Source of the DNA: Halomonas sp.
GTDB lineage: Bacteria; Pseudomonadota; Gammaproteobacteria; Pseudomonadales; Halomonadaceae
Assembly: GCF_029263665.1 (NCBI RefSeq)
Contig: NZ_JAJUFQ010000002.1
Location: forward strand, 271,510 to 335,509
DNA length: 64,000 nucleotides
Direction: 5' to 3'
The notes beneath the pieces were generated by a model. That model ran no database searches and was not told the origin of the DNA. It saw only the letters and a list, made by a program, of their open reading frames with translations. The position numbers were made by a program, and so were the translations under genes. This document shows, in pieces, positions 26,440 through 47,315 of the stretch; the first letter of the stretch is position 1, and each line of letters opens with the position of its first letter.

Positions 26440-26833
26440 GTATACGCCCCTTGTGGGTAAACGTCAGGGTTTTCCACACCCAGGTTAGCCAGTTCCTCTC
26501 CTCTCTAATTAAACAATACGTATAAAAAGAAAGAAGTTCTGTTATGGTAGTTACTACTGTTGTGGGTAATTTCTGTGGAAAATCTAGTTTTTCCATTTAA
26601 AAACATAAAGATGAATTGTTTACAAAATTCTGGAGAAGAGGCCTATGAGCTGCGGACTCCCTGTCTTGATGCTGTGGATGAAACCCTTGGTTACCCACAT
26701 CCGATAGGGTCCACCAGTTATCCACCGACCTCATGAGGACTTGTCACCGCAGAGGTGAACAAGAGACGAATTTGCCTGAAACCCGCATGATAACTGGGAT
26801 GGAGGAATAATCCCGGTTTTCTTATCCACAGGC
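26440..26833. other. oriC: Candidate origin: DnaA-box cluster upstream of mnmG
   Basis: Part of a 562-base gene-free stretch between mnmG and the amino-acid transporter. I count seven DnaA-box-like sites. TTATCCACA is at 26822-26830. TTTTCCACA is at 26469-26477 and, reversed, 26574-26582. The one-mismatch forms are TTACCCACA at 26691-26699 and reversed at 26452-26460 and 26561-26569, and TTATCCACC at 26718-26726. An AT-rich segment at about 26505-26635 could be the unwinding element. The position next to mnmG is that of E. coli oriC. Whether this site is active, or the one beside dnaA, cannot be decided by eye. Confidence 0.55.
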
Positions 26834-26868
26834 AAAAAAATCCCCTGTCGATAATCTCGCCAGGGGAT
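26834..26868 (-). terminator. Terminator of the amino-acid transporter operon
   Basis: ATCCCCTG (26840-26847) pairs with CAGGGGAT (26861-26868), and in the leftward direction a seven-T run follows (A-run 26834-26840). It lies about 55 bases beyond the stop of the ATP-binding protein and would keep its transcript out of the DnaA-box cluster. Confidence 0.8.
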
Positions 26869-26923
26869 CGAGGGGCTGCAGAGGTGGGTTTCACGTTCAA
26901 TCCAGAGTGGGCCGACACTTCAT

Positions 26924-27712
26924 CTAATGTTTCAATACCCGGGAAAGAAAGGATTGTGTTCTTTCATTCTGGGGGTTGTCGAAGACTTCATCAGGGCGCC
27001 CCTGCTCGACAATTTCACCCTGGTGGATATAGATCACTCTGTCGGCGACTTCCCGGGCAAACCCCATCTCATGGGTAACGATTATCATGGTCATGCCATC
27101 CCGAGCCAGCTCGCGCATGGCATCAAGCACTTCCCCTATCATCTCTGGATCCAGCGCCGAGGTTGGTTCATCAAACAACATCAGCCGCGGTTCCATGGCC
27201 AAGGCCCGGGCCAGGGCGACGCGTTGCTGCTGGCCTCCTGAAAGCTGAGAGGGGTACTTGTCCGCCTGGTCGCGAATGCCAACCCTATCCAGAAGCCGTT
27301 CGGCAATTTCCATTGCCTGCGGCATAGCCATGCCTTTCACCTTGGTAGGAGCCAGGGTGATGTTGTCGCGCACGTTAAGGTGAGGAAAAAGGTTGAACTG
27401 CTGGAACACCATGCCAACTTCCGTGCGAATGGTCTGCAGAGCACGGCTGGCCTTGCCATAGGGCCGCAGGTCGTGGCCATCGACACGCAACTGGCCTTGC
27501 TGGAACTCTTCCAGGCCATTGATGCAGCGGATCAGAGTGGATTTACCGGAGCCACTGGCGCCGATGATGACGACAACTTCACCGTGGCTGACGTCGAGAT
27601 CGATATTCTTCAATACATGGTGGGCACCATAGTACTTGTTCAATTTGCGCAGTCTGACGATGGATTCACCGTCTCTGTGAGCTGTTGCGCTAGTGCTGAG
27701 TGCATGACTCAT
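26924..27712 (-). CDS. Polar amino-acid ABC transporter, ATP-binding subunit
   Basis: A 262-residue ABC ATPase of the GlnQ/HisP/ArtP class. Walker A is G-A-S-G-S-G-K-S-T near residue 53, the Q-loop is Q-Q-F-N-L-F-P-H, the signature is L-S-G-G-Q-Q-Q-R near 155, Walker B is [13 protein letters not shown], and the switch His is in V-T-H-E-M-G-F. It powers the permease and binding protein encoded just upstream. Start ATG 27712. Substrate not determinable beyond polar amino acid. Confidence 0.95.
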
Positions 27713-27761
27713 GTCGTGTTGTCCTGTCGTTGAGACCGTTGAAGTAGTGAGGTCCAGTGGG

Positions 27762-28430
27762 TTATTGGCCGACTAATCCCCTGCGTTCCAGCAAACGCAG
27801 GAGCAAGGACAGGGTTAAGGTGATGGCCAGGTACATCAGAGCCACCATCAGGTATACCTCCAGAGCAGTGAAGGTGGTGGCAATATAGATCTGGCCTTGG
27901 CGAACCAGCTCCCCTACGCCTATGACGGCGAACAGAGAGGTGTCCTTGATGCTGATGATGCCTTGGTTTCCCAATGCGGGAATCATGCGTCGGAAAGCCT
28001 GGGGCCAGATGATGTAACGGAAGGTATTCAAGCGCGACAGGCCCAGAGACAGGCCCGCCTCACGTTGACCTCGTTCGATGGATTGGATGCCTCCACGCAC
28101 GACTTCAGAGATATAGGCTCCGGAATTGACGGCAATGGCAGCAATACCGGCTGTAAGCGGGCCAATGTGACCGATCACGTCGGAAAGGCCGTAGAAGATG
28201 AACAGGACCTGGACCAGCACCGGAGTGCCACGGAATATTTCGATATAGACGATGGCGGGAACACGTAGCCAGCGACTGGGAGATATTCGCAACAGGCCAA
28301 AGAAGATGCCGATGAAGAAGCCGATGGCCAGACCGACGATGGAGATCAGCAGTGTATAGGGAATGCCTGTCAGCAGATGGGGAATGGAGGACAATGCTGC
28401 CGACCAGTCGAATGTAAAGTTGGAGTTCAC
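27762..28430 (-). CDS. Polar amino-acid ABC transporter, permease
   Basis: A 222-residue HisM/GlnP-type inner-membrane permease with about five helices. The family's ATPase-coupling loop is [18 protein letters not shown] near residue 110, and F-R-G-T-P-V-L-V-Q is present. Only one permease gene is found, so it probably works as a homodimer. The start is GTG at 28430 preceded by GAGGGAG. It lies between the ATPase and binding-protein genes. Confidence 0.94.
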
Positions 28431-28472
28431 TCAGGATCTCCCTCGAGCAGTAGAGTCAGGGAAAATGCAAAG

Positions 28473-28496
28473 AGGGCCGGATGATGATCCGGCCCT
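28473..28496 (-). terminator. Hairpin between binding-protein and permease genes
   Basis: A perfect ten-base stem AGGGCCGGAT (28473-28482) and ATCCGGCCCT (28487-28496) with a four-base loop, without a good T-run. It sits in the gap downstream of the binding-protein gene and is likely a partial terminator or RNA-stabilising structure that keeps binding protein in excess over the membrane subunits. Confidence 0.6.
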
Positions 28497-28548
28497 TTCG
28501 CTTCTTTCACAGGTATCACGTTAGAACCTCGATGTGACGAGAGTGGAA

Positions 28549-29304
28549 TCACTCGTCGCCAGAGGAACCAAACCACTTGGCGTGTATGCTGTCGTAGGTA
28601 CCGTCTTCCTTCATGGACGCCAGGGCCTCGTTGACAGGCTTGACCCATTCGCTGTCCTTGGTGAAGACGATGCCGTATTGCTGCCCCTCGTAGAGAGGGC
28701 CTACGACCTTGACCTTGTCCTTGCCTCGTGTCTGGGAGAAGTAGCCGACATTGGGAGCATCATAGAAGACGGCATCGACACTGCCGCCAAGCAAGGCCAT
28801 GTACATGTCAGCAGAGCCTGGGTAAGGCGTGATGGTCGATGTTTCTCCGAGCGTTTCCTGCAGGTAGTCGAAGCTGGTGGAGCCAATCTTGGTGCCCACG
28901 CGCATGCCTGACAGGTCATCTATGCTGGTGACATCCTCCTGGTCGGCCTTGACCAGGATTTGTAGACCACTGTCGTAATAAGGATCGGAGAAGTCGACGA
29001 TCTTGGCTCGTTCATCGGTGATCGTGATACCGGCAATGGCAATGTCCACGTTACCGGTTTGAACTGCGGGAATGATGCCATTGAAATCCATGGTGCGGAC
29101 TTCGTAGTCGAAACCGGCCCGTTCGCTCAATTCCGCAATGATATCCATGTCAAATCCAACCATTTCGCCGGATTCCTGGTCCATCATCTCGAAGGGGACG
29201 AAGCTGGGATCAGTGGCGACGGTCAGGGTTTCGGAATGTGCAAGGCCAGCGCCCGCGATCATCATCACTGCTGCGAGAGCCGTGGAAGTCAGTGCGGTTT
29301 TCAT
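28549..29304 (-). CDS. Polar amino-acid ABC transporter, periplasmic binding protein
   Basis: A 251-residue SBP_bac_3-family protein. A signal peptide (M-K-T-A-L-T-S to A-L-A-H-S-E) precedes the ligand domain. Family motifs are V-A-T-D-P-S-F-V-P-F-E, V-G-F-D-M-D-I-I-A, G-I-T-I-T-D-E-R-A-K-I-V-D-F-S-D-P-Y-Y and the closing H-A-K-W-F-G. It captures an amino acid in the periplasm for the downstream permease and ATPase. Start at ATG 29304 behind AGGGGA; an upstream GTG frame to 29349 lacks a signal-like start. Confidence 0.94.
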   Translation of the reverse strand: MKTALTSTALAAVMMIAGAGLAHSETLTVATDPSFVPFEMMDQESGEMVGFDMDIIAELSERAGFDYEVRTMDFNGIIPAVQTGNVDIAIAGITITDERAKIVDFSDPYYDSGLQILVKADQEDVTSIDDLSGMRVGTKIGSTSFDYLQETLGETSTITPYPGSADMYMALLGGSVDAVFYDAPNVGYFSQTRGKDKVKVVGPLYEGQQYGIVFTKDSEWVKPVNEALASMKEDGTYDSIHAKWFGSSGDE

Positions 29305-29446
29305 GGGGGGTCCCCTGTTGGAGTTATTGTCGAATACCCCAACTACCATGGCTGACTTGAGATAAAAGGGTCAAGTTACATAAATTTTCAATAGGGCGAA
29401 AATCGTGGCCATTTCAAGGCCAGAAAGCCAGCAAGTAAGTACTCGC

Positions 29447-29800
29447 TTACACCATGAAAGAGGCGCCGCAGCCACAAGTGCTGGTGGCATTGGGGTTCTG
29501 AACCAGGAAGCGTGCGCCTGCGAGGCCTTCTTCATAGTCTATGGTGGAGCCGACAAGATACTGGTAGGAAAGGGGATCGATCACCAGTGACACATCGCCA
29601 AAAGGGATTTCGGTATCATCGTCATTGATGGCATCGGCTACGTCGAAGCCATACTGAAAACCAGAACACCCCCCTCCTGTGACGTAGACACGCAGGGAAA
29701 GACGGTCGTTGCCTTCATCGGCCTTGAGGGCCTGCAGGCGGCGACGTGCGTTGTCTGACAGCATCAGAGGCGTGGGAATGAAGGATTCGGCACCGCTCAT
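29447..29800 (-). CDS. erpA: Iron-sulfur cluster insertion protein ErpA
   Basis: An A-type Fe-S carrier of 117 residues. The three cluster-ligand cysteines are visible in [10 protein letters not shown] and S-T-C-G-C-G-A-S-F. ErpA passes clusters to apoproteins such as isoprenoid enzymes IspG and IspH. Start ATG 29800 with CGGAG upstream. The next gene upstream, in the same direction, is argC, 135 bases away. Confidence 0.96.
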
Positions 29801-29885
29801 GGTCGAGCTCCGGAAATCGGTGAATGGCGATCAACACCGTATTATCCGGAATTCCCACTAATTTGGTCAACTTTATCCTGCTGAT

Positions 29886-29911
29886 CGCCTCCTATCAGAC
29901 GACAGGAGGCG
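29886..29911 (-). other. Hairpin downstream of argC
   Basis: CGCCTCCT (29886-29893) pairs with AGGAGGCG (29904-29911) about 25 bases past the argC stop. The sequence beyond it is not T-rich, so termination is uncertain. Confidence 0.4.
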
Positions 29912-29935
29912 GCCAGGCCCGGCGTGATCGCTTGA

Positions 29936-30970
29936 TCAGGGCATGATGGCCGGAGCATCGAGACCTGCAGTCTCATCGAAGCCAAACATCAAGTTCAAGT
30001 TATGCACAGCCTGACCTGAAGCTCCCTTGACCAGATTGTCGATCACTGAAAGCACGATCACGGTATCGCCGTCGCCAGGGCGGTGAATGGCCAGGCGGCA
30101 CATGTTGGCACCCTTGACGCTACGCGTTTCCGGGTGACTGCCGGGAGGCATCACGTCGACAAAGGGTTCATTGGCATAGCGTTCTTCGAAGTGTTTCTGC
30201 AAGTCTTCGGGTTCACTGGTCAGACGCCCATACAGCGTCGCGTGAATACCGCGGATCATCGGCGTCAGGTGAGGCACAAAGGTCAGACCGACTTCATTGC
30301 CAGCCGCATCTCCCAGGCCTTGACGAATTTCCGGTAGATGCCGGTGCCCCGATGCACCATAGGCCTTGAGGGACTCACTGGCTTCAGCCAACAGAGATGG
30401 TACCTTGGCACCTCGCCCGGCACCTGTGACGCCGGACTTGCAGTCGGCGATCAGGTGTTGTGGGTCGATCAAGCCGGCCTCGAGCAATGGCAGGAAGCCG
30501 AGCTGCACGGCAGTGGGATAACAGCCGGGAACCGCGATCAGGCGTGAAGAGCGGATACGTTCACGATTGACTTCAGGCAGGCCATAGACAGCTTCCCCAA
30601 GCAACTCAGGAGCGCCATGAGGCTGGCCGTACCACTCAGCCCAAAGCTTCGCATCGCGTATACGGAAGTCGGCTGACAAGTCGATGATACGAGTGCCCTG
30701 CTCCAGCAGTTCTCCAGCCAGAGCATGAGCAACGCCATGAGGCGTGGCAAAGAACACGGCATCGCACTTGCCCAGGCGTACCGGGTCGGGCTCAGAGAAG
30801 CGCAGTTCATCGTAGTGACCACGCAGGTTGGGATACAGATCGCAGACCCCCAGGCCCGACTCGCTTCGGGAGGTGATGGCCTCGACTTCGACATGGGGGT
30901 GACGTGCCAGAAGCCTGAGCAGTTCGACGCCGGTATAGCCAGTACCGCCGACAATTCCAACCTTGATCAC
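29936..30970 (-). CDS. argC: N-acetyl-gamma-glutamyl-phosphate reductase
   Basis: Third step of arginine synthesis: NADPH reduction of N-acetylglutamyl phosphate to the semialdehyde. The 344-residue protein has the NADP fold [16 protein letters not shown] and the catalytic Cys in V-P-G-C-Y-P-T-A-V. Start set at GTG 30970, with AGGAG seven bases upstream; the frame continues to 31117 but the extra 49 residues have no family counterpart. Divergent from the ClC gene, with a shared 96-base promoter region. Confidence 0.96.
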
Positions 30971-31066
30971 TTGGGTGCTCCTGTATATGGGGACATCATT
31001 CGCTCTATGATACACAAGGGTAACACCGCTTAAGGAAACTCTTGTTCTTAGATCAAGGAAAGTTCT

Positions 31067-33010
31067 GTGCCACGTATCCGTCTGTCGGGCTTCAGTCTTG
31101 ATACCTTCCGTCGACAATTGGCAAATGTCGACGCGCTTCCGCAGCTATGCGTTCTAGGCGTATTGAGTGGATTGATCACTGGTAGCTTCATGGTGTTGTT
31201 TCGTTCCTTGCTGATGCTGGGAGCTGTCGTTTTCATGCCCCATGGCGATCCGGAAGCCTTCGAGCAACTGTCAAGAACGGTACGTGTGCTGCTGCCGATC
31301 CTGGCGGTCTTCGTGATCGGTATACTGCTCTGGCGGCAACCTGCTGCTGCTCGCAAGGTGGGAGTAGGCCATGTCATCGAGCGATTGACCGACCATCAGG
31401 GACGCTTTCCCATGCGTAACTGGATCAACCAATGGTGGATCGGTGCCTTGTCAGTGATGGGGGGACTTTCCGCGGGGCGAGAGGGACCGGCGATTCATCT
31501 TGGTGCAGCGGCTTCCAGCGGCATGGGGGAACTGCTCAGGCTACCGCATAACAGTCTTCGGGTCTTGGTGGCCTGTGGCACTGCGGCAGGCATTTCGGCC
31601 TCCTTCAATACCCCGATTGCCGGGGTCATCTTCGCCATGGAAGTGGTGATGATGGAATACACCATCGTCGGTTTCATGCCTGTCATTCTGGCCGCTTGCA
31701 TGGCCGCAGTGATATCTCAGCTGGTCTATGGTTCTGAGCCAGCCTTCGCTGTACCCGAATTGGCGATGGGGTCGCTGTTCAATTTCTACTGGATCGTCAT
31801 CATGGCCTTTGGCATAGGCCTCCTGGCAGGATTGTTCCTGCATGTCGCGCGCAGTGCGCGCGTTGCCAGCTTGCCCATGTGGTTGCGCTTTGCCCTGGTG
31901 GCAGCGATGGCTGCTGCATTGGCCTGGAGTTATCCCCAGGTACAGGGGATTGGCTATGACAGCCTTTCTGATGCCTTGTTTGGCAAATTGACCGTGGATG
32001 TATTGGTAGCCTTGGCGTTAGGCAAGCTGTTGCTCACGGCCTTCTCTGTGGCTTGTGGTGTACCGGTGAGCATCATAGGGCCAGTACTAGTGATAGGCGC
32101 TGCTGCCGGGGCACTGATGGGGCTGTTTGGCGTCTGGCTATGGCCGGGTAAAGCTGCCGATCCCGGGCTCTTCGCCATGATCGGCATGGCGGCGATGATG
32201 GGAGCCGTATTGCAGGCACCTTTGGCAGCACTGATGGCGTTGCTTGAATTGACACACCATCCGCATATTCTCTTGCCTGGCATGTTGGCTGTGGTGGTTT
32301 CTGGGCTTACGACACGTCAACTGTGTCGTTGTGATGGGATATTTATCAACATCAAGCGCAAGGGCATGCATCCGTTGCAACACCCTTTGATGCAGGCTTT
32401 GTCTCGAGTATCGGTGCCTGCGGTCATGGAACGCAGCATTGTGCGCACCCGGCGTCGGATCGACAGGGGGCAGGCCAAGTCTTTGCTTGAAAGCAATCCC
32501 ATGTGGATCCTGATCGAGCGTTCCACTGATGACAAGCCTACCTTGGCACTGAAAGCGGCAGATCTGGCGCTATGGTTGATGGAGCTGGAAAACAAGCATG
32601 CCATCCCTTCTTCTGAGCAGGGACATGGGCAGAAGAAGGATTCCAGAGAAAAGGCCAGGCCGCCCCTGACATCTGCGGAGGATGAGGAGATCATGGACAT
32701 TGTCTCTCACGATGAGAGCGAAGATAGGAGTGGGAATCAGGAGCGTGCCGAAGATGGGGAAGGCGACGAGAGCAAGGACAGCGAGGCCGAGACGTTGGAT
32801 CTGCTGGAAATCCCTGGGCACCGTATGGACCTGGCAGCCATCTCTCTGCAGGCAACACTGTCGGAGGCTTTGATTGTACTCAATGAACGCAAGGTAGATG
32901 GGCTATACGTAGAGCACGGTTATCATGCTAGGCAGAAGAGAATTTCCGGTATCATCACTCGAGAGGCAATCGAGGCGTACTATCGCATTTCTGATTCATC
33001 CACAGCCTGA
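31067..33010 (+). CDS. ClC-family chloride channel/antiporter with C-terminal CBS region
   Basis: A 647-residue ClC protein. Residues to about 430 form the membrane domain with the gating motif [10 protein letters not shown] (its Glu is the E. coli Glu148 equivalent) and the [13 protein letters not shown] segment. The first anion-site motif, normally G-S-G-I-P, reads G-V-G-H-V, and the G-x-F-x-P motif reads S-I-I-G-P, so selectivity may differ from the model exchangers. The cytoplasmic part resembles two CBS halves split by a very acidic, Glu/Asp/Ser-rich linker around residues 510-585. Start is GTG 31067 behind AAGGA. hemJ follows after nine bases. Confidence 0.88.
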
Positions 33011-33019
33011 GGAGCCAGT

Positions 33020-33451
33020 ATGTACCTGTGGATAAAAGCTTTTCACCTGATGGCCGTGGTAGCTTGGTTTGCTGCCCTGTTCTATCTGCCCCGTCTGTTC
33101 GTGTATCACGCCATGGCTCGGGACAAAGGCGAATACACCAGCATGGACACTTTCAAGGTCATGGAGCGCAAGCTCTATCGCGGCATCATGACGCCCTCCA
33201 TGGTGGTGTCTCTGCTCCTTGGGATCGCTCTACTATGGCTCAATCCGGCATGGCTACATATGGGCTGGTTGCATGCCAAGCTTTTCGCTGTCCTGCTGCT
33301 GATTGCCTATCATCACGTCTGCTTGATCTACATGAAGCAACTAGCGGAAGATCGCTGCCAGCGAAGCCACAAGTTTTTTCGTATATTCAATGAGTTACCG
33401 GTTTTAATGCTGGTGGCTATTGTCATCCTTGTTGTGGTGAAGCCGTTTTGA
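33020..33451 (+). CDS. hemJ: HemJ-type protoporphyrinogen IX oxidase
   Basis: A 143-residue, four-helix membrane protein of the HemJ family, which oxidises protoporphyrinogen IX to protoporphyrin IX in bacteria lacking HemG or HemY. The conserved N-terminus Y-L-W-I-K-A-F-H-L-M-A-V-V-A-W-F-A-A-L-F-Y-L-P-R-L carries the invariant His, and M-G-W-L-H-A-K-L holds the conserved Lys. Start ATG 33020 behind GAGGAG. hemL and hemW lie within 6 kb, a loose haem grouping. Confidence 0.92.
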   Translation: MYLWIKAFHLMAVVAWFAALFYLPRLFVYHAMARDKGEYTSMDTFKVMERKLYRGIMTPSMVVSLLLGIALLWLNPAWLHMGWLHAKLFAVLLLIAYHHVCLIYMKQLAEDRCQRSHKFFRIFNELPVLMLVAIVILVVVKPF

Positions 33452-34299
33452 CTGCTCTTAACATGAACTGGCAACCCAACCTACCCGGGGTCCTGGTATT
33501 GGCCGGACATGATCCCACGGGAGGAGCAGGGATTATTGCAGACTCCGAAAGCGTCTCTGCTTGCGGTGGTTGGGCCTTGACGATTCCGACCGCTCTGACC
33601 GTACAGGACTGCGATAATGTATTGGCGGTTTCGCCGGTACCCGCAGAAGGTATTCTGCAGGCTGCTGCGGCACTGGAGGCCATTCCGGTGTCTGCCATCA
33701 AGATAGGATTGATTGCTGATATTGACGTGCTGGATGCGGTGGTCGATGTCGTACGTACTCGCCCGGGCATTCCTGTCGTGGCAGACCCGGTATTGCGCGC
33801 TGGAGGTGGCTGCGATCTGGCAACTCAGGAACTGATCGATGCTTATTGCGAGCGCTTGTTGCCTTGGGTCGACATCCTGACACCCAATCGGCACGAATTG
33901 GCGCGTCTGGCTGGAAAGGATTATCACGACGATACCGAGCGTGCGGTGAGCTTGATGCGCCAAGGCTGTCAGGCCCTGTTGGTGACGGGGACCGATGAGC
34001 CTCTGGAGCAGGTGGCGAAGGACAAGGTAGCCCACACGCTGCATGCACCTGATGTGGATCGTCAATGGACCTGGCCGCGTCTCGATGGCCGCTACCATGG
34101 CTCTGGTTGTACCCTGGCGTCTGCGCTGGCTACACGCTTGGCCGCGGGTGAATCCCTGATTCGGGCCTGTGAACAGGCCCAGGTGTTTACCTGGCAAGCG
34201 TTGGCCCACGGCTGGCAGGCTGGCAGCGGGCAATACCTGCCTCGTCGTTTGTGGCAGATGCCTGCTCCATGCTTTTCCATGGACGAGGTCGGGTTATGA
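33448..34299 (+). CDS. thiD: Hydroxymethylpyrimidine/phosphomethylpyrimidine kinase
   Basis: Thiamine-pathway kinase phosphorylating HMP and HMP-P. Up to 283 residues of ribokinase-like fold. The N-terminal [13 protein letters not shown], the adenine region and the C-terminal G-S-G-C-T-L-A-S-A, which supplies the anion hole and catalytic region, are all present. The start is uncertain: TTG 33448 overlaps the hemJ stop, while ATG 33463 gives 278 residues; neither has a clear ribosome site, so translation may be coupled to hemJ. No other thi genes are nearby. Confidence 0.9.
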
Positions 34300-34334
34300 T
34301 GAGGCCAAAGAATTATCCCGTGCTTTTCACAGAG

Positions 34335-34343
34335 TTATCCACA
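34335..34343 (+). promoter_or_regulatory. DnaA box immediately upstream of hemL
   Basis: Perfect TTATCCACA in the 55-base thiD-hemL gap, overlapping the likely 5' leader of hemL. One of ten perfect copies lying between 25 and 47.3 kb. Confidence 0.6.
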
Positions 34344-34354
34344 AAGAGGTTTTC

Positions 34355-35641: not shown

Positions 35642-35659
35642 GTCTGACAGGAGCCCACC

Positions 35660-36927: not shown

Positions 36928-36956
36928 AAACCGGGATCTGGGATCCCGGTTTTCTT
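36928..36956 (+). terminator. Terminator after the P-loop kinase gene
   Basis: An 11-base perfect stem AAACCGGGATC (36928-36938) and GATCCCGGTTT (36942-36952) with a TGG loop, followed by TCTTA. It closes the hemL transcription unit. A perfect DnaA box (36962-36970, reverse) follows directly. Confidence 0.85.
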
Positions 36957-37045
36957 ATGCCTGTGGATAAGTCATTGTTCCAAGAACACTGTCGTCATCC
37001 ATACTCGAACCATCGATGAGATGGAGATGGTTCAAGCCCTATCCG

Positions 37046-38684: not shown

Positions 38685-38712
38685 TGGCCGGATAATGTGC
38701 GATGATCAGGCA

Positions 38713-39900
38713 ATGAACGCTACCCTCCCCCCTCTGGCTTTGTATGTTCACGTACCTTGGTGCGTGCGCAAGTGCCCTTATTGTGATTTCAATTCCCATG
38801 GTATCGGGCGTTCTGACGGCAAGGGCCGGGAGGCGTTACCGGAGCAGGACTATCTGGCCGCACTGATTGCTGATCTCGAGGCCGACATGGCGTTGGCAGG
38901 CAATCGCCACTTGCGCAGCATCTTTATCGGTGGAGGGACGCCGAGCCTGATGTCGGGGGATTTCTATCGTCGATTATTGGCGGCAGTCGCGCAGCGGATC
39001 CCCTTTAGCGACGATATCGAGATTACCCTGGAAGCCAACCCCGGGACTTTGGAGCGCGGACGCTTTGCGGCCTATCGCGAGGCGGGTATCAATCGTCTGT
39101 CGTTGGGAGTGCAGAGCTTTCAGGATGCTCAACTGAAAGCGCTTGGACGCATTCATGATGGGGATGATGCATTGCTGGCAGTGGCCGAGGCGCGCGAGGC
39201 CGGTTTCGATAATATCAACCTGGACCTGATGCATGGTTTGCCAGGGCAGACGCCAGAGTCTGCCCTGGCCGATCTTGACCAGGCTCTGGAACTGGCACCA
39301 GAGCACCTGTCCTGGTATCAACTGACGGTGGAGCCCAACACCGAGTTCCATTCCCATCCGCCAGTATTACCCGATGATGAGATTTTGTGGGATATACAGG
39401 ACCTGGGACATGCCCGCCTGGAGCAGGCAGGTCTGCGTCGTTATGAGATTTCCGCTTATACCCGGCCCGGGCGGCATGCCCGGCATAATCTCAATTACTG
39501 GAATTTTGGCGACTACCTAGGCATCGGCGCTGGAGCCCATGCCAAGCTGAGCCGATGGGATGCCGACAGACTGTACATCGAGCGGCGCTGGAAGACCCGC
39601 CAGCCTGATGCCTACCTGCGCCGTCTGCAGGACCCTCGTGGTTTCGTTGCCGGGGCTCGAACCATCGGTGACGATGACATCTTGATCGAGTTCGCCATGA
39701 ATGCCTTGCGTCTGGTCGATGGAGTGGCACTGTCCACTTGGCAGGCACATACCGGCCGGCCGCAGGGTGAGCTGGAAAAGTGTCTCCATGTAGCGAGAGA
39801 AAAAGGACTTCTTGTGCAAGACCGCGAGAGACTGCAAGCTACGCCTCAAGGTCTATTATTCTTGAACGACCTTCTTGCGCTGCTCTCTGAGGATGAATAA
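38713..39900 (+). CDS. hemW: Radical SAM haem chaperone HemW
   Basis: A 395-residue radical SAM protein, formerly annotated as a coproporphyrinogen dehydrogenase homologue. The cluster motif is C-V-R-K-C-P-Y-C-D-F near residue 16, followed by I-F-I-G-G-G-T-P-S-L and A-N-P-G-T-L. HemW proteins bind haem and lack the Cys needed for HemN activity. Start chosen at ATG 38713, adjoining the conserved L-A-L-Y-V-H-V-P-W-C; ATG 38695 is also possible and the frame extends into rdgB. Ribosome site weak. Confidence 0.93.
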   Translation: MNATLPPLALYVHVPWCVRKCPYCDFNSHGIGRSDGKGREALPEQDYLAALIADLEADMALAGNRHLRSIFIGGGTPSLMSGDFYRRLLAAVAQRIPFSDDIEITLEANPGTLERGRFAAYREAGINRLSLGVQSFQDAQLKALGRIHDGDDALLAVAEAREAGFDNINLDLMHGLPGQTPESALADLDQALELAPEHLSWYQLTVEPNTEFHSHPPVLPDDEILWDIQDLGHARLEQAGLRRYEISAYTRPGRHARHNLNYWNFGDYLGIGAGAHAKLSRWDADRLYIERRWKTRQPDAYLRRLQDPRGFVAGARTIGDDDILIEFAMNALRLVDGVALSTWQAHTGRPQGELEKCLHVAREKGLLVQDRERLQATPQGLLFLNDLLALLSEDE

Positions 39901-39977
39901 TCGAGCAGCTTCACTATCGAGCTAACATCATCGCGTTTAATACCATCGCGTTTAATAAAGTCAGGAGACGTTGACGC

Positions 39978-40676
39978 ATGAGCCGTACCACCCGACTGAT
40001 TGCCCCCCTGGCCGCCGCTGCCCTTCTTGCTGGTTGTGCTTCATCATCCCCCTATTCTGGACAGCAGACTGATCGCAACAATACCGGTATTGGCGCTGCT
40101 GTAGGTGCTGTTGTAGGTGCTGCCGCTGGAGCCATCAGTGGTGATGGCAGCACCAGCAAGCGTGACCGTGCCCTGATCGGTGCTGCTGCCGGCGCTGCCG
40201 TAGGCGGTGGTATCGGCGCTTACATGGACAAGCAGGAACGCGAGTTGCGCCAAAGCATGCAAGGCACCGGTATCGAGGTTGATCGTCAGGGCGATAATAT
40301 CGTGCTCAACATGCCGAGCAGCGTCACCTTCGGCTTCGACTCATCCGATCTTACCGGTAATGCCACCACGGCATTGAATGATGTGGCCAACGTTCTGACC
40401 CAGTATCCGGAAACCACCATCAACATTGCAGGTCATACCGATTCCACAGGGGATGCCGGCTACAATCAGAAATTGTCCGAGCGTCGTGCCCAAGCTGTAG
40501 GCGGCTACCTGCAGGGACGTGGTGTGGCTGCCAACCGTCTGGCCATGATGGGGTATGGCGAGAACCAACCCATTGCCAGCAATGACACGGAAGAAGGGCG
40601 AGCTCAGAATCGTCGCGTCGAAATCACCCTGACCCCGACTGGTCAGCAGCCGCAACAGCAAACCACCACTGGCTGA
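39978..40676 (+). CDS. OmpA-domain outer-membrane lipoprotein
   Basis: A 232-residue lipoprotein: signal peptide with lipobox L-L-A-G-C-A-S, a glycine-zipper segment at about residues 36-85 (repeated G-A-x-x-G), then an OmpA_C peptidoglycan-binding domain from about 110, with I-A-G-H-T-D-S-T-G and the closing N-R-R-V-E-I. It resembles YiaD/YfiB proteins that tether the outer membrane to peptidoglycan. Start ATG 39978 behind AGGAGA. Tail is Gln/Thr-rich. Confidence 0.92.
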   Translation: MSRTTRLIAPLAAAALLAGCASSSPYSGQQTDRNNTGIGAAVGAVVGAAAGAISGDGSTSKRDRALIGAAAGAAVGGGIGAYMDKQERELRQSMQGTGIEVDRQGDNIVLNMPSSVTFGFDSSDLTGNATTALNDVANVLTQYPETTINIAGHTDSTGDAGYNQKLSERRAQAVGGYLQGRGVAANRLAMMGYGENQPIASNDTEEGRAQNRRVEITLTPTGQQPQQQTTTG

Positions 40677-40720
40677 TGCCTGGTTGCCAGGATCTCCTGG
40701 CGCTGTGTTGAACGCTCTCC

Positions 40721-40749
40721 GCCCGTCACTTACCGGTGACGGGCTTTTT
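40721..40749 (+). terminator. Terminator after the OmpA-like gene
   Basis: GCCCGTCAC (40721-40729) pairs with GTGACGGGC (40736-40744), followed by TTTTT. A textbook rho-independent terminator. Confidence 0.9.
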
Positions 40750-40895
40750 CATTTCACAGCCTTGGCGTTGCTGTTTCTGCCCGCGGTATTGATGTAGCTC
40801 CCAGGGGCGAGTTTTTCTGTCATCCACACGGGACGAACCTCCTGAAACCCGCTATCTTTTCGTAATCCCGTCATTATTGAATTATCACGGCCGAC

Positions 40896-40901
40896 TATAA
40901 T
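40896..40901 (+). promoter_or_regulatory. Candidate -10 element just before rlmJ
   Basis: A perfect TATAAT ends five bases before the rlmJ ATG. If used, transcription would begin at or about the start codon. The -35 region is weak (TTATTG at 40874-40879). Confidence 0.35.
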
Positions 40902-40906
40902 CCCCC

Positions 40907-41764
40907 ATGCTTTCATATCAACATGCCTATCATGCCGGCAACTTCGCCGACGTTCACAAGCATATCTGCGTTTATTCTGTATCTGATTATCTGTTACGTA
41001 AAAAATCGTCCATTACGTTTGTTGATACTCACGCAGGTCGTGGCAGTTATCCTCTTGATGCAGCTGAAACAGAGAGGCTGCAGGAGTATCGAGAAGGGAT
41101 CGAGCGGTTATGGATGACGCGAGGTCAGCTGAACAATCCATTATTGATGGAATGGCTGGATGCCATTGCTAGCTTGCAGAGAGGCGTGAAGCTTGAGCGC
41201 TACCCAGGATCGCCCTGGTGGTTGGGGCATCGACTCAGGGAGCAGGATTACCTGACAGTGTTTGAGCTGCACCCTGGCGAACATCGTCATCTCAGTGAGG
41301 AAAGTGTGGTTCCGAAAGGGCGAGAAAAAGCGTTACACAGGGTATATGGAGATGGTCTGGCAGGGTTGGTCAAATCATTGCCGGTGACTACGCCACGGGT
41401 CTGCGCGTTGATCGATCCTTCATTCGAGCGCAAGGACGAATACCAGGAGGTCGTTGAAGCGATCATTCAGGCCATGCGCAAAGCACGCCACGCGGTGGTC
41501 ATGCTGTGGTATCCATTACTGCCGGCAGGGCGTCATCATGCCATGCTGGAGACGCTTGGAGACAGCGGTATCCGCAAGATCTGGCGTAGTGAAATCCTGC
41601 GTGAGCCAGTGGGGGAGTCCGCCCATGGCATGTACGGCAGTGGCATGCTGGTGATAAATCCACCGTGGGGGCTCGATGAGCGCCTTGGCCAGGCCTATGA
41701 ACACTGGTTGCCGCTACTGGGGGATCAGGCGCAGCACCGAGCCGAATGGCTGGTGGAAGAATGA
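40907..41764 (+). CDS. rlmJ: 23S rRNA (adenine2030-N6)-methyltransferase
   Basis: An RlmJ/YhiR-family protein of 285 residues. N-terminal M-L-S-Y-Q-H-A-Y-H-A-G-N-F-A-D-V-H-K-H and F-V-D-T-H-A-G-R-G-S-Y fit well. The catalytic D-P-P-Y motif of the family reads D-P-S-F here (L-I-D-P-S-F-E-R-K-D-E-Y), a notable substitution at the target-base pocket. The ATG at 40907 has no ribosome site but a TATAAT just upstream, so the message might be leaderless. Confidence 0.92.
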   Translation: MLSYQHAYHAGNFADVHKHICVYSVSDYLLRKKSSITFVDTHAGRGSYPLDAAETERLQEYREGIERLWMTRGQLNNPLLMEWLDAIASLQRGVKLERYPGSPWWLGHRLREQDYLTVFELHPGEHRHLSEESVVPKGREKALHRVYGDGLAGLVKSLPVTTPRVCALIDPSFERKDEYQEVVEAIIQAMRKARHAVVMLWYPLLPAGRHHAMLETLGDSGIRKIWRSEILREPVGESAHGMYGSGMLVINPPWGLDERLGQAYEHWLPLLGDQAQHRAEWLVEE

Positions 41765-41854
41765 ACAGCGATCACGATGATCCTCATGGATGTGGGAACG
41801 GCGATGGTTCGTCTGCAACGAGCATCGCCATTCATGAGGTGTTTCCCTGGATGT

Positions 41855-42208
41855 TCAAACATCCAGAATGGTTTCGAATCCACCGAAAATCATGCGTTTT
41901 CCATCGAACGGCATTTCGTCCATGAAGTCGTCCATTGCATTCTCGGCTTCCATGCGGGCAAAAGTATCGTCTCTGGCTTGCTTCGATGGAAACTCGATCC
42001 AACTGAACACTACCACTTCTCCGGGCTCGCTCTGTACAGCACGGGGAAAGTCGGTGATCTTGCCCTCGGGAACGTCGGTTCCCCAGGCCTCCACTATCCG
42101 TGTTGCTCCGTAACGCTTGAATACCTCCGCGGCACGAGCGGCAAGATCCCGGTAGGCCTCCCGGTTTTCTTCGGGTACTGCAACCACGAAACCTTCTACA
42201 TAGGCCAT
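41855..42208 (-). CDS. DUF1428 family protein (YbaA-like)
   Basis: A 117-residue protein of the DUF1428 family, small alpha/beta-barrel proteins of unknown function. M-A-Y-V-E-G-F-V-V-A-V-P, the A-W-G-T-D-V-P-E-G-K segment and the C-terminal F-D-G-K-R-M-I-F-G-G-F are family-like. Start ATG 42208 with a GGGGGG-rich ribosome site; the frame runs five codons further to 42223. Monocistronic and convergent with rlmJ. Confidence 0.85.
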   Translation of the reverse strand: MAYVEGFVVAVPEENREAYRDLAARAAEVFKRYGATRIVEAWGTDVPEGKITDFPRAVQSEPGEVVVFSWIEFPSKQARDDTFARMEAENAMDDFMDEMPFDGKRMIFGGFETILDV

Positions 42209-42269
42209 GACAAGGCCCCCCATGGAATGTGAATTTGGACGCTACAGAGAGTGTAGTTGCTATTGGCCT

Positions 42270-42459
42270 CTAGGCTCTGTCTGAAAAGTGTCTGTGCTCA
42301 GTCATGCGGCGTTGAGCCAACAGCCGAAGGCTGGCCAGAAGGGCGAGCGAAGCGAGTCAATCGGCCTCAAAATGCTCATTTACGATCAGTAAACTGCGCT
42401 TTTTCACCCGATTCTGCCTTGCCTGATCATCGCTCGCCGACTTTTGAGACAAGCCCTAG
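42270..42459. mobile_element. 190-bp MITE-like element flanked by CTAG
   Basis: CTAGGCTCTGTCTGAAAAGT (42270-42289) and, at the other end, ACTTTTGAGACAAGCCCTAG (42440-42459) form imperfect terminal inverted repeats, matching at 16 of 20 positions. Both ends carry CTAG, consistent with a four-base target duplication of the type made by IS5-group transposases. The interior has no convincing gene. I interpret it as a non-autonomous element mobilised in trans. Confidence 0.65.
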
Positions 42460-42768
42460 TACCTTGGCGTCTGGCTGGTTGCTTCATTCCTGAAAGGGGA
42501 TGACTGGCCATTCTTGTCACTGGTAGCCATCACCCTGGCCATGATCATGTTGTCTGGAGGGGCAGGGGGAGGAGCCATACGAGCAGAATACGCAGCAGTT
42601 GCCAGGTTTTGGGCTCAGCGTCTGACAACTGCTGGGGGCCGCAATCATCCTGGCTGGCGTATGGCTAGGCCAGAGAGCAGGGCGATATGCCCTATCCAGA
42701 AACAGCCGGGGAGAGGCTGCATGATGCACTTTGCTCCTCACGGCAGGATGGGCCTGAGTCGGGCATGA
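42460..42768 (+). pseudogene. Gene remnant abutting the MITE
   Basis: An open frame runs from the right edge of the element to 42768. Its first 50 codons read like a membrane protein (Y-L-G-V-W-L-V-A-S-F-L-K-G-D-D-W-P-F, then V-A-I-T-L-A-M-I-M-L), but it has no start codon or ribosome site, and the later part loses protein character. It may be the stump of a gene cut by the insertion. Parent family not recognised. Confidence 0.3.
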
Positions 42769-42779
42769 GCTTCTATCGG

Positions 42780-44150
42780 TCACTTGCCGATGCAGAAGCT
42801 ACCGAAGATTTCGCCCAACAGATCGTCTGCACTGAATTCCCCGGTGATTTCACCGAGGGCATGCTGAGCATCGCGCAGATCCTCTGCGAGCAACTCCCCA
42901 GCACCGTAGCCATGTAATTGAGCTTCGCCATTGTCCAGCGCTACTCGGGCGCGGTCGAGTGCATCGAGGTGGCGTCGACGGGCAGAGAAACGACCTTCTG
43001 TGGTGGACTGAAAGCCCATCACGGCCTTGAGATGCTCCTTGAGACTATCCACACCCTCTCCTGTATGCGCGGAGAGACGTACCGTTGGAGAGGTTGTGGA
43101 TAAGTCAATTCCAGAGGACTCTCCACTTTGGTCCACCTTGTTGCGCACTAGGGTCAAGCGTTCTGGCGCGGGGAGGCGTTCGACGAACTCCGGCCAGATG
43201 GCCATGGGATCGGAGGAGGAGGTGGTGTTGGCATCGACCAGCAGCAGCACCCGGTCAGCCTTTTCGATCTCGGCCCAGGCGCGGGCGACACCGATGCGCT
43301 CGACTTCATCAGGCGTGTCACGCAGGCCAGCGGTATCGATGATATGCAGGGGCATGCCATCGATATGGATATGCTCGCGCAGTACATCCCGGGTGGTGCC
43401 TTCAATATCGGTGACGATGGCGGTCTCCTGCTCGGTCAGCGCATTGAGCAGGCTCGACTTGCCGGCATTGGGGCGGCCGGCAATGACCACGCTCATCCCT
43501 TCCCGCATCAAGGCTCCCTGTCCGGCACTGGCACGAACTTCAGCCAGCTCCGCCATCAGGGCTGCGAGTTTGGCAGCGACGTGGCCATCGGCGAGAAAGT
43601 CGATTTCTTCTTCGGGAAAATCAATGGCCGCTTCCACATACATGCGCAGCTCGATCAGCCCTTGAACCAGGTGATGAACACGGGTGGAGAATTCACCCTG
43701 CAGTGAGCGCAAGGCGTTTTCTGCGGCTGTTCGTGAGCTGGCATCGATCAAGTCCGCAATGGCTTCGGCTTGGGCCAGGTCGAGCTTGTCATTGAGAAAG
43801 GCGCGCTCGGAGAACTCGCCAGGGCGTGCCAGGCGGGCTCCTAGCTCGATGCAGCGTTCCAGCAGCATGTCCATGATCACAGGGCCGCCATGTCCCTGAA
43901 GTTCAAGTACATCTTCGCCGGTGAAAGAATGAGGGCCCTCGAAGAACAGGGCAATACCCTCGTCGATGACGCCCTCTGCGCCCAGGAAAGGTCCGTAATA
44001 GGCTCTGCGTGGCTGGAGGGAATACCCCAGCATGGCGTTGGCAATCGTCGCGCAGGCGGGCCCTGAGACGCGAATGATGCCGACCCCGCCGCGTCCGGGA
44101 GGCGTAGCCAGGGCGGTGATGCTGTCCTGAGTGTAGAGAGGCTGGGGCAT
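42780..44150 (-). CDS. mnmE: tRNA modification GTPase MnmE
   Basis: Partners MnmG in forming cmnm5U34 in tRNA. The 456-residue protein has an N-terminal folate-binding domain ([19 protein letters not shown]), a helical domain with an inserted G domain, Walker [11 protein letters not shown] near residue 225 and D-T-A-G-L-R-D-T, and the invariant C-terminal C-I-G-K. Start ATG 44150. It is downstream of yidC in the usual order, but mnmG does not follow. A DnaA box (43095-43103, reverse) lies within the gene. Confidence 0.98.
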
Positions 44151-44227
44151 GGAAGAGGATTCCTTGAATACTGTGCCTATTTTCCTGGGGGAGGGGATTT
44201 TTTGCCAGTCCGGAGTGGCCTAGAAAC

Positions 44228-44251
44228 GAAAACCCCCCGCTAGGCGGGGGG
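44228..44251 (-). terminator. Terminator downstream of yidC
   Basis: CCCCCCGC (44233-44240) pairs with GCGGGGGG (44244-44251) around a TAG loop; leftwards a TTTT run follows. It separates yidC from mnmE, so mnmE probably has its own promoter. Confidence 0.85.
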
Positions 44252-44271
44252 CTGGAGCGTGCGGGGAAGGG

Positions 44272-45948
44272 TTACTTGGCTACCCCTTTGCCGACACTCG
44301 GGTCACTCTCGATCTTGCGGGTGATCAAGTACTGCTGAATGATCGAAATGCAGTTGTTGCATACCCAGTAGATCACCAGACCTGCGGGGAACCACAGGAA
44401 GAAGAAGGTGAAGACGATGGGCAGCAGCTTCATGATTTTCGCCTGCATGGGATCAGGAGGCGTCGGGTTGAGCAGTTGCTGAACGTACATTGAGACGCCC
44501 ATCAGGATCGGCAGGATGAAGTAAGGGTCCTTCACCGACAGGTCCTGAATCCACAGCATGAAGGGAGCATGGCGCAGCTCGACGGATTCCAGCAGCATCC
44601 AGTAGAGAGCGATGAACACTGGCATCTGTACCACGATCGGCAGGCAGCCACCCAGGGGGTTGATCTTTTCCTTCTGGTAGAACTTCATCATCTCCTGGGA
44701 CATCTTCTGGCGATCATCGCCGAAGCGTTCCTTGAGACGCTGCATTTCCGGGCCCAGTTTGCGCATGCGCGCCATGGAGCGGTAGGCCTTGGCCGACAGT
44801 GGCCACAGTGCCGTCTTGACCATGATGGTCAGGATGACGATGGACCAGCCCCAGTTACCGATCAGGCTGTGGATATGATCAAGCAGCCAGAACAATGGGT
44901 TGGCGATGAACCATAACCAACCGAAGTCGACCGTCAGCTCCAGGTTCGGGGCAATGGCTTCAAGGCGCTCCTGGACCTTGGGGCCCATGTAAAGCGTTGC
45001 GCCGAGAGTAGTATCTGCACCTGGTGCGACGGTTTCTGTCTGACCGGCGAAGGCGGCGACGTTACGATTCTGAGAATCGGTGGTCGCGTAGAACAGGTTC
45101 TGCTGTTTCTGGGAAGGAACCCAGGCAGAGGTGAAGTAGTGCTGGATGATGGCTACCCAGCCTCCTTCGGCTTCACGATTGCTGAACTTGTGCGCCTGGA
45201 TATCTTCGAAGCTGACCTTCTCGTAACGGTTATCCGGTGAAGAATAGGCTGCTCCGAGGAAGGACTTCATCCCCATCTTCGGACCAACGGATGGATCCGG
45301 CTGGCTGTCACGCACCAACTGGCCGATGAAGCGGGCCGTCACTGGCTTGTCACTGCCATTGTCCAACAGGTAAGAGACCTTCACCGCATAGTCATCACGA
45401 TTGAAGGTAAAGCGCTTGATGACGTCGACGCCATTGACCGTGGCCTTCATGTCCACGTTCATGGTGTCCTGGCCGTCAACAAGGCGGTATTCCGTCTTCT
45501 CGGGCGTGAAGGCGATACGGCCTGAGTGACCATCAATCTGCAAGCCGGAGCGCGCTACATAGTTGAGCGTATTGGTGCTGGCCAGCAGGACATAAGGTCG
45601 GTCACCATCCTGGCTCATCAGGTGCTCGGGCAGAGCGGCATAAACAACATCACCCCCCTGGGGGTCGATGCGCAGATCAAGCACATCAGTGACGACGGCG
45701 ACAAGATTACGCCCGTTGCTGACTGCTGCGTTGTCGGTAGTTGGGAGTTCTGCTGCGACGTCCTTATCGGCGCTTGGTGCGGCCAAGCCTTCGCCCGCAT
45801 TATCTGAGCCATCCTGGGAGGCATTGCTGGTGATCGCTGGAGCCTCCGGCGAACTGGGAGTCTGACCATAATCCTGGTTCCACTGCACCATGATCAGGTA
45901 AGCAAGCACCGCCAGGGGGATCAGTAGGAGTAGTCGTTTTACGTCCAT
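44272..45948 (-). CDS. yidC: Membrane protein insertase YidC
   Basis: A 558-residue Gram-negative-type YidC/Oxa1 insertase. It has an N-terminal membrane anchor (L-L-L-L-I-P-L-A-V-L-A-Y-L), a large periplasmic beta-sandwich domain (about residues 60-340), and the conserved five-helix insertase core from about 350 with G-N-W-G-W-S-I-V-I-L-T and G-G-C-L-P-I-V-V-Q-M-P-V-F-I-A-L-Y. It inserts Fo subunit c among others. Start ATG 45948. yidD, usually between rnpA and yidC, is not seen. Confidence 0.98.
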   Translation of the reverse strand: MDVKRLLLLIPLAVLAYLIMVQWNQDYGQTPSSPEAPAITSNASQDGSDNAGEGLAAPSADKDVAAELPTTDNAAVSNGRNLVAVVTDVLDLRIDPQGGDVVYAALPEHLMSQDGDRPYVLLASTNTLNYVARSGLQIDGHSGRIAFTPEKTEYRLVDGQDTMNVDMKATVNGVDVIKRFTFNRDDYAVKVSYLLDNGSDKPVTARFIGQLVRDSQPDPSVGPKMGMKSFLGAAYSSPDNRYEKVSFEDIQAHKFSNREAEGGWVAIIQHYFTSAWVPSQKQQNLFYATTDSQNRNVAAFAGQTETVAPGADTTLGATLYMGPKVQERLEAIAPNLELTVDFGWLWFIANPLFWLLDHIHSLIGNWGWSIVILTIMVKTALWPLSAKAYRSMARMRKLGPEMQRLKERFGDDRQKMSQEMMKFYQKEKINPLGGCLPIVVQMPVFIALYWMLLESVELRHAPFMLWIQDLSVKDPYFILPILMGVSMYVQQLLNPTPPDPMQAKIMKLLPIVFTFFFLWFPAGLVIYWVCNNCISIIQQYLITRKIESDPSVGKGVAK

Positions 45949-46018
45949 GAGGGGTCTGCCCGATGGGAAGTGAACAATCCAGTGGCGTCATGCGGGACGC
46001 CTACGTGAGATATGCGAA

Positions 46019-46037
46019 AGCCTGCCGGAGGCAGGCT
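46019..46037 (-). terminator. Hairpin between rnpA and yidC
   Basis: AGCCTGCC (46019-46026) pairs with GGCAGGCT (46030-46037) with a GGA loop. Only TT follows in the leftward direction, so it is a weak terminator or processing site in the 228-base rnpA-yidC gap. I see no gene in that gap. Confidence 0.5.
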
Positions 46038-46176
46038 GAATTCCGTACGCAGACATTCCGCGATAAAAGGTGAGACGTCAATGCTTGAAGCATCAGGCCC
46101 AATCATGCGCATTCAGATCACCAATGGCATCGAAGGAGCCCGGCAAGATCTACCCGCAATGCTATCTACCCCGATA

Positions 46177-46587
46177 CTAGGAGGCTGCGGGTGAGCGGGG
46201 AGCCGTCGAGGGGCGAGAGGGTCGGGTCGACTTCTCGGCCTCGCGCTCGAGGCGGCGCCACATGCCGAACAGCTGACGATGCAGAGTGTCGTTATCGACC
46301 TCGTTAACACCACGTCTGGCCAACAAGACGATATCCACAGCGGGTAGTCGATGCTGAGCATGGCGTACGGATTCGCGAGCCAGCCGTTTCAGGCGATTAC
46401 GATCAACGGCGCGGCGTACGTTCTTCTTGCTGAAAACAAGGCCCAGGCGCGGGTGACCCACTTCATTGGGGGTCGCCAACGCCATCAGGCCTTTGCCGTG
46501 GACCTTGTAGACCGCCTTATCAAAGACACGGCGATACTCCCCGGCAGTCAGCAAGCGGTAATGCCGGGGAAAGGCCAGACAGGTCAC
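46177..46587 (-). CDS. rnpA: Ribonuclease P protein component
   Basis: Protein subunit of RNase P, 136 residues. The RNR signature is R-R-A-V-D-R-N-R-L-K-R-L-A-R-E-S near residue 60, preceded by G-L-V-F-S-K-K. The C-terminal 15-20 residues are Ser/Pro/Arg-rich and longer than in E. coli (119 residues). Start is GTG at 46587 with AGGT upstream, 14 bases beyond the rpmH stop. Confidence 0.96.
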   Translation of the reverse strand: MTCLAFPRHYRLLTAGEYRRVFDKAVYKVHGKGLMALATPNEVGHPRLGLVFSKKNVRRAVDRNRLKRLARESVRHAQHRLPAVDIVLLARRGVNEVDNDTLHRQLFGMWRRLEREAEKSTRPSRPSTAPRSPAAS

Positions 46588-46601
46588 AGATGACCTGCTG
46601 A

Positions 46602-46736
46602 TCAGGCGCTCAGGCGCTTGCGGCCCTTGGCACGACGGCGTGCAAGAACGGCACGGCCGTTCTTAGTGGCCATACGGGCACGGAAGCCGTGCGTACGCTT
46701 ACGCTTGAGAACGCTCGGTTGGAAAGTGCGCTTCAT
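46602..46736 (-). CDS. rpmH: 50S ribosomal protein L34
   Basis: A 44-codon gene. It begins [19 protein letters not shown] and ends [10 protein letters not shown], an almost canonical L34. Start ATG 46736, stop TGA at 46602-46604. First gene of the rpmH-rnpA unit that diverges from dnaA across the origin region. Confidence 0.98.
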
Positions 46737-46869
46737 AACTCATTAATCCCACAGTGGTTTTTTGGAACGGATAGATATCCAGATATGCCCGGAATCCGCT
46801 CAGGCCTCCGGGGGTATTCGGCTCAAGACCGGACATTCTAGTGATTTCAAACCATCCGCGCAATTGTCG

Positions 46870-47315
46870 AAAGCACTTTTTCCACAGGAGGTTTGAATCG
46901 GCGGGTTGTCTTGGTCGGGGCCGCTGCAAATGATCAGGAGAGGACAGTTGAAGAAACGAGGCCTGAAAGGATCGCTTTGGTGGCGTGTGGTACTGACGTT
47001 CATTTTGAGAAATGACCGGTCTCTTCAATAACTATTACTTAAAAGCTTTTCAAATAAACCTGTTATTATTACTGGGGATAATGATTGTGGATAAGTTGTT
47101 TTTCACTATTTCTTTCAACTCATTATAGAAATATTAAAAGTGTGGAGAACAGGTAGATCAATGGTGGAAGCAGCGTGGACGGCTTGTGTACAGTAAGCTT
47201 TTTTATCCACATCCGTTGGAGTGTCCTGGTTTTGTCCTCATGTTTCCAGGCCATCGAACAAGAAGTTGTCCACAGTAGTGAAAAGGTACCTTGGTCATGT
47301 GGATAACCCGGGCCT
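46870..47315. other. oriC: Origin of replication candidate between rpmH and dnaA
   Basis: Part of a 624-base gene-free stretch. Perfect DnaA boxes are at 47086-47094 (reverse), 47203-47211 (forward) and 47298-47306 (reverse). TTTTCCACA is at 46878-46886, and a one-mismatch TTGTCCACA at 47266-47274. An AT-rich segment at about 47020-47150 is a plausible unwinding element. The location between rpmH and dnaA is that of the pseudomonad origin. The box nearest dnaA may also serve dnaA autoregulation. Confidence 0.65.

Follow-up and report, generated by a model that had tools for sequence, protein, structure and literature searches.

A predicted replication origin beside mnmG and a predicted dnaA control cluster 20 kb away in Halomonas and other Halomonadaceae

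In E. coli the chromosomal replication origin, oriC, lies beside gidA (mnmG), and a separate cluster of DnaA boxes is found at the dnaA promoter about 42 kb away (available text of PMC12000880). In Pseudomonas putida and P. aeruginosa oriC is located in the rpmH-dnaA gap, and P. aeruginosa has two autonomously replicating fragments, of which just one is essential (PMC4403523). Here we describe a 64,000-base stretch of a Halomonas sp. genome (the window; C8:271510-335509 of G000), which forms the right end of a 335,509-base contig in a 4.69 Mb assembly of 50 contigs. A first-pass annotation had pointed to two origin-like DnaA-box clusters 20 kb apart, one upstream of mnmG and one between rpmH and dnaA. 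Both clusters are real, yet they are not equal origins. With a probability of roughly 0.86, the mnmG gap is the single origin (oriC), and the rpmH-dnaA cluster would mainly control the dnaA promoter.

Any site with at most one mismatch to TTATCCACA was scored as a DnaA box. By this definition the whole contig contains 77 boxes (0.23 per kb), of which nine, one perfect, are found in the 562-bp mnmG gap (26362-26923) and seven, three perfect, in the rpmH-dnaA gap (46737-47360). The first-pass annotation was right about the clusters and low in its counts of seven and five. The two gaps are the densest box places on the contig, with 9 (mnmG) and 7 (dnaA) boxes in 450 bp against a Poisson expectation of 0.10 (P = 3e-13 for at least eight boxes and 1.5e-9 for at least six, uncorrected for scanning). 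Each also holds AT-rich DNA, as had been claimed; the dnaA gap includes the second and the mnmG gap the fourth least stable 60-bp stretch of the window. The clusters are 21 kb apart, with 15 open reading frames (ORFs) of at least 150 aa between them.

For comparison, about 82 kb (65 kb in one case) around mnmG and dnaA was taken from 20 named Halomonadaceae, 24 genomes having been searched for dnaA; counts out of 21 refer to these relatives plus the window itself. Among 80 named mnmG loci, that of Halomonas cupida is nearest to our own (90% identical). Both clusters are retained in 20/20 relatives; the mnmG gap holds 4-8 boxes and the dnaA gap 3-6, and the gaps are separated by 17-36 kb.

The origin assignment is carried by strand bias. 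Cumulative guanine-cytosine (GC) skew drops over about 299 kb of the contig until window position 27341 and then climbs. This position is also the best switch point; the mnmG gap scores 2.2-2.9 log-likelihood units lower, and the dnaA gap 54-57 lower. Because the bias switches within about 1 kb of the mnmG gap and not at dnaA, the mnmG gap is the likely oriC. The switch, resolved to a few kb, falls where an mnmG-type oriC would place it, and skew gives no change of replication direction at the rpmH-dnaA gap, where a Pseudomonas-type origin would lie. A sharp skew minimum at one site, together with an absence of conserved boxes at the other, had been named beforehand as the outcome that would speak against two origins; the former was found, to within a few kb, and the latter was not.

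Replication direction was separated from gene strand by means of skew at 4-fold degenerate sites. Plus-strand skew of leftward genes is +0.03 left of mnmG and +0.31 between the sites (+0.32 for the block from the ATP-binding cassette (ABC) transporter genes to argC, +0.29 for mnmE-rnpA), and that of rightward genes is -0.05 between the sites and -0.03 right of dnaA. In its skew the DNA between the sites therefore resembles the right arm, as if it were copied rightward from mnmG in nearly all generations. Gene direction itself, tallied from mechanically called ORFs of at least 150 aa, agrees in part with what had been described: leftward genes dominate left of the mnmG gap (18 leftward, 3 rightward) and directions are mixed between the sites (8 and 7), but the rightward dominance claimed past 47 kb applies to dnaA-gyrB only (5 leftward and 7 rightward genes lie right of the dnaA start).

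The same pattern is found in the relatives. In 20/20 Halomonadaceae the mnmG gap outscores the dnaA gap as a switch point, by 2 to 80 units, and none of the switch points is displaced toward dnaA. The share of replication direction attributable to the dnaA site was estimated by regression on mechanically called ORFs, with terms for gene strand and side and a bootstrap over genomes; pooled, it is 0.07 (95% -0.04 to 0.17). In a closed relative (G059), of which 397 kb was read for skew, the best switch lies 955 bases inside mnmG, the mnmG gap scores -3.1 and the dnaA gap -60.6, and the dnaA-site share is -0.21 (-0.60 to 0.10).

Several observations weigh against the assignment of the origin to mnmG. 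Our own contig, taken alone, gives a dnaA-site share of 0.04 (-0.76 to 0.60) and cannot fix it, and shares from single relatives scatter from -0.94 to 0.69. The margin in favor of the mnmG gap is merely 2.0-2.8 units in three genomes (G005, G007, G011). The best switch point is no more than 2.2 kb from the mnmG start in 9/20 relatives and 6.0-8.8 kb left of it in 11/20, and the plain cumulative-skew minimum is 24-28 kb left in 3/20 (G007, G011, G018); with such scatter, the origin is therefore not mapped to the base. Two Pseudomonas genomes, examined as a control, did not discriminate: the best switch falls 25 kb to the left of mnmG in one and 29 kb in the other, and both gaps score alike (-6.9 vs -8.8; -12.3 vs -12.5). 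A skew comparison of orthologs, with mnmE and yidC set against parB, parA, rsmG and mnmG, yielded 0.12 as the difference between clades (0.09-0.15 when genomes were bootstrapped), based on these six genes only. Skew also records past use, so a recent switch of origin is possible. SeqA has no match in the genome (the E. coli control was positive) and GATC is not enriched in the mnmG gap (2 found vs 3.3 expected); E. coli-type sequestration is therefore not expected. Finally, extra native DnaA did not repress dnaA in P. putida (available text of PMC8203912), which weakens the self-control proposed for dnaA below.

Raw skew minima were discarded as a base-resolution map, because their positions vary among the relatives: some are within mnmG, some close to the atp operon, and some 24-28 kb to the left. 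A third origin at the spot 8.5 kb left was also considered and rejected, since, in each of the 21 contexts, the list of the three densest other places includes no cluster near it. The window counterpart of this spot is atpA, a strongly expressed gene.

Within the mnmG gap, four box columns are well kept (26470 in 21/21, 26452 in 20, 26574 in 19, and 26822 in 18), and the remaining five in 6 to 11 of 21. A pair of boxes spaced by 13 bp, each with at most two mismatches, followed by a TAG/TAA-rich stretch, is present in 18/21 and resembles the basal unwinding system as far as the available text of PMC8287927 describes it. DnaA would bind the boxes of this gap and open the AT-rich stretch beside the 13-bp-spaced pair; forks would then depart in both directions, and the 20 kb to dnaA would be copied rightward. 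DnaA trios were rejected as proof of origin function, as runs of three occur in just 1 of 18 mnmG modules and in 2 of 12 dnaA modules.

Boxes also recur outside the gap. A perfect box at 25272, within the mnmG coding sequence, is kept in 18/21; its retention may reflect constraint on the protein, which at this position is the same in 17. In many relatives a small group of 2-4 boxes recurs about 7.2-7.9 kb to the right of the mnmG start (window about 32996-33035), close to where a ClC-type channel gene ends and the following gene starts.

In the rpmH-dnaA gap the best-kept boxes are those nearest dnaA: 47298 is present in 21/21, perfect every time, and 47266 in 20/21. Of the others, 47086 is kept in 18/21, 47141 in 11, 47073 and 47203 in 5 each, and 46878 in fewer than 4. 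The box at 47298 belongs to a box-N16-TACNNT arrangement that stands upstream of dnaA in 21/21 Halomonadaceae (TACAAT throughout, except TACACT in Kushneria) and in none of the 21 mnmG gaps. Box-N16-TACAAT is also found in 46/47 Pseudomonas-group loci with a recognized dnaA start, and the exact pattern is rare elsewhere (5/274 gammaproteobacterial genomes drawn from the class, our own included). It is compatible with a sigma-70 promoter whose -35 element is covered by the box, in a promoter scan that returned 1 match vs 1.1 expected in shuffles. All 21 loci thus have a DnaA box at the predicted dnaA promoter, the arrangement of a DnaA-controlled promoter, and DnaA bound there would repress or tune dnaA. 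The rpmH-dnaA cluster is therefore likely to bind DnaA mainly for control of this promoter. A 13-bp-spaced box pair is present in 12/21 dnaA gaps, in one of them at a different place. The other boxes and the trio-like stretch may be a remnant of, or a reserve for, a Pseudomonas-type origin on the dnaA side, and the gap is best read as a predicted dnaA control region with a possible fading or reserve origin module.

Two working origins, with both gaps firing alternately or together, would agree with the cluster and AT-rich stretch present in each gap, with the box pair and trio-like repeats that each has in our own genome, and with the retention of both clusters in all 20 relatives; an ultraviolet-induced, DnaA-dependent initiation zone bordering dnaA is also described for E. 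coli rnhAB mutants (available text of PMC12000880). Nevertheless, between the sites the strand bias is already that of the DNA right of dnaA, and the pooled dnaA-site share has an upper bound of about 17%. Bipartite origins, the type of B. subtilis and H. pylori, are described as extending over no more than about 2 kb and as including a spacer gene, in most cases dnaA (available text of PMC4285127), a layout that clusters 21 kb apart do not share. The bipartite or dual origin offered in the first-pass annotation thus finds no support, and we consider it unlikely. Even less probable is a present origin in the dnaA gap, with the mnmG gap recently reduced to a relic and the skew lagging behind. 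P. aeruginosa has its oriC at dnaA (available text of PMC3642087), and in 55/56 Pseudomonas and related loci (L027-L082) the 600 bp upstream of mnmG contain 3-9 boxes, so that boxes at this place need not go with a known origin. The mnmG-gap boxes are, however, not decaying, as the columns at 26470, 26452 and 26574 demonstrate, and the skew pattern is common across the family.

The option that one of the two clusters is a relic comes nearest to the facts, except that the dnaA cluster is not merely a relic, given that its promoter-proximal boxes are among the best conserved. A variant compatible with an origin at mnmG would have the dnaA gap serve purely in regulation of dnaA (and rpmH), with no history as an origin, and we give it somewhat less than an even chance. 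Two of the three best-kept boxes of this gap (47266, 47298) are the two nearest dnaA, and E. coli likewise keeps a box cluster at its dnaA promoter apart from oriC; on the other hand, 18/21 retain box 47086, which stands next to the trio-like stretch at about 240 bp upstream of the -10 element predicted for dnaA, and P. aeruginosa has its origin in the corresponding gap.

The third densest cluster of the contig consists of four boxes (C8:270788-271100; window -721 to -409) inside a DUF72 gene. DUF72 copies were collected without the use of the boxes, giving 17 (15 of the 20 relatives, G059, and our own). The boxes at C8:270831 (window -678; TTATCCACA) and C8:271053 (window -456; TTATCAACA), 222 bp apart, are kept in 16/17 and 17/17 copies, the other two in fewer. 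In a control with shuffled 9-mers, the number of hits in coding genes kept in 80% of relatives averaged 0.25 over 60 motifs (largest 3), against 3 for the real box. Since shuffled motifs can reach the same value, retention alone is weak evidence. The Ile codons of the boxes are the rare ATA in 33/33 cases, compared with 8/100 elsewhere in the gene. The DUF72 claim is carried by the codon test: the three most codon-constrained of 235 DUF72 positions are box codons, and codons of a GGGGAAAACCCC block rank 5th, 6th and 10th. This block, a nearly invariant GGGGTTTTCCCC (GGGGAAAACCCC on the coding strand) at C8:270815-270826 beside the perfect box, might be a binding site or a hairpin. In Halomonas sp. 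NO4 (G018; G036 is identical) the DUF72 match does not start until residue 165 of 304 and includes a stop, and this broken copy retains both boxes, the 222-bp spacing and the GGGGAAAACCCC block; the G367 copy also has a stop within the alignment. Because of the 33/33 ATA codons and the retention of the pair in a broken gene, the pair may well be selected as DNA. These DUF72 counts ignore shared ancestry and hence overstate significance.

The pattern TGTTGATAA-N(210-216)-TGTGGATAA occurs in 168/201 genomes drawn from the family and 20/24 genera, and the reversed control gave 0; among the matches listed, at least 3 of the 168 genomes rest solely on a match of another length, which appears chance-like. 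In an order-wide draw it was present in 9/12 family genomes and in 3/281 others, whose shown sequence is unlike DUF72, and it was found in 7/9 further named relatives. The gene lies on the left arm, 17.5-31.4 kb from the mnmG start in 15 relatives and about 27 kb in our own genome; in V. maris the box pair is about 79 kb from mnmG. It is slightly favored that initiation in Halomonadaceae would draw on DnaA binding at three places, namely oriC beside mnmG, the promoter of dnaA, and a control site embedded in DUF72, selected as DNA and similar to E. coli datA or the DnaA-reactivating sequences (DARS).

Coordinates of the features discussed. Positions are those of the window unless preceded by C8; consensus matches and counts as defined in the text.
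Feature	Position	Strand	Remarks
DUF72 gene (PF01904), 5' end in window	1..84 (C8:270679-271593)	-	body left of window holds box pair
mnmG (gidA)	24448..26361	-	TIGR00136, 924 bits
mnmG gap, predicted oriC	26362..26923		9 boxes; skew switch nearby; box columns kept in relatives
Box pair nearest mnmG	26452..26478	26452 minus, 26470 plus	kept in 20/21 and 21/21
Two boxes 13 bp apart, then trio-like stretch; candidate unwinding module beside AT-rich run	26537..26582	-	
Perfect box TTATCCACA, far side of mnmG gap	26822..26830	+	box in 18/21, perfect in 9
Amino-acid-type ABC transporter genes, erpA, argC; right neighbors of predicted origin	26924..31117	-	NCBIfam
mnmE, yidC, rnpA	42780..46587	-	NCBIfam
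rpmH-dnaA gap, predicted dnaA control region, possible remnant or reserve origin	46737..47360		7 boxes
Two boxes 13 bp apart, then GTAATAATAACA (three trio-like repeats)	47061..47094	-	
Perfect box TGTGGATAA-N16-TACAAT, over -35 of predicted dnaA promoter	47298..47328	+	promoter scan and conservation
dnaA	47361..48836	+	TIGR00362, 613 bits
Six parS-like sites	50455..56909		at most 2 mismatches to parS consensus; all right of dnaA

Amongst the neighboring genes, the ABC transporter genes right of the mnmG gap score below the curated cut-offs of the named NCBIfam equivalogs. The parS-like sites all lie 3-10 kb past the dnaA start and none is near mnmG, while parA and parB are found left of mnmG; no further parS-like sites occur on the contig (one strand was scanned, the motif being a near-palindrome). 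Rfam and tRNA searches of the window gave no matches.

A DnaA-box cluster adjoining dnaA need not be an origin. If the origin of Halomonadaceae is, as is likely, at mnmG, as opposed to dnaA in P. aeruginosa and P. putida, the group offers a tractable case of origin relocation in which both sites are still visible. The DUF72 pair, should it bind DnaA, would extend datA/DARS-like control sites beyond the enterobacteria and into a coding gene. Members of Halomonas are used in biotechnology.

For the genus itself, the available text of PMC3187862 marks origin and terminus of H. elongata on a GC-skew plot, and that of PMC5638851 places the origin of H. beimenensis by GC skew at 65 kb of the record. 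The available text of these two papers contains no words beginning dnaA, oriC or gidA; with subscription journals mostly uncovered, an mnmG assignment has possibly been published.

Compared with datA and DARS, the DUF72 site similarly consists of DnaA boxes away from oriC, but its two conserved boxes lie within a protein gene with no clear IHF site between them. The minimal datA combines three essential boxes with an IHF site (available text of PMC10950094), whereas only two boxes are conserved here and the IHF-like matches, all with one mismatch, overlap one of them. With P. putida and P. aeruginosa the locus shares the rpmH-dnaA gap, its perfect boxes and TGTGGATAA-N16-TACAAT upstream of dnaA; it differs in that the skew switch lies elsewhere, and mnmE and mnmG are 16 kb apart, as against about 0.5-6 kb in Pseudomonas-group loci. 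Like the pair of P. aeruginosa fragments, it presents two origin-like places per chromosome of which one is apparently enough, here judged from sequence alone. As in E. coli, the skew-based origin adjoins mnmG and a box cluster stands at dnaA, at a distance of tens of kb (17-36 kb across the 20 relatives); unlike in E. coli, there is neither a SeqA match nor GATC in excess, and an ABC transporter gene takes the place of mioC. The arrangement in Halomonadaceae is thus predicted to be E. coli-like, with an origin at mnmG and a dnaA control cluster 20 kb away.

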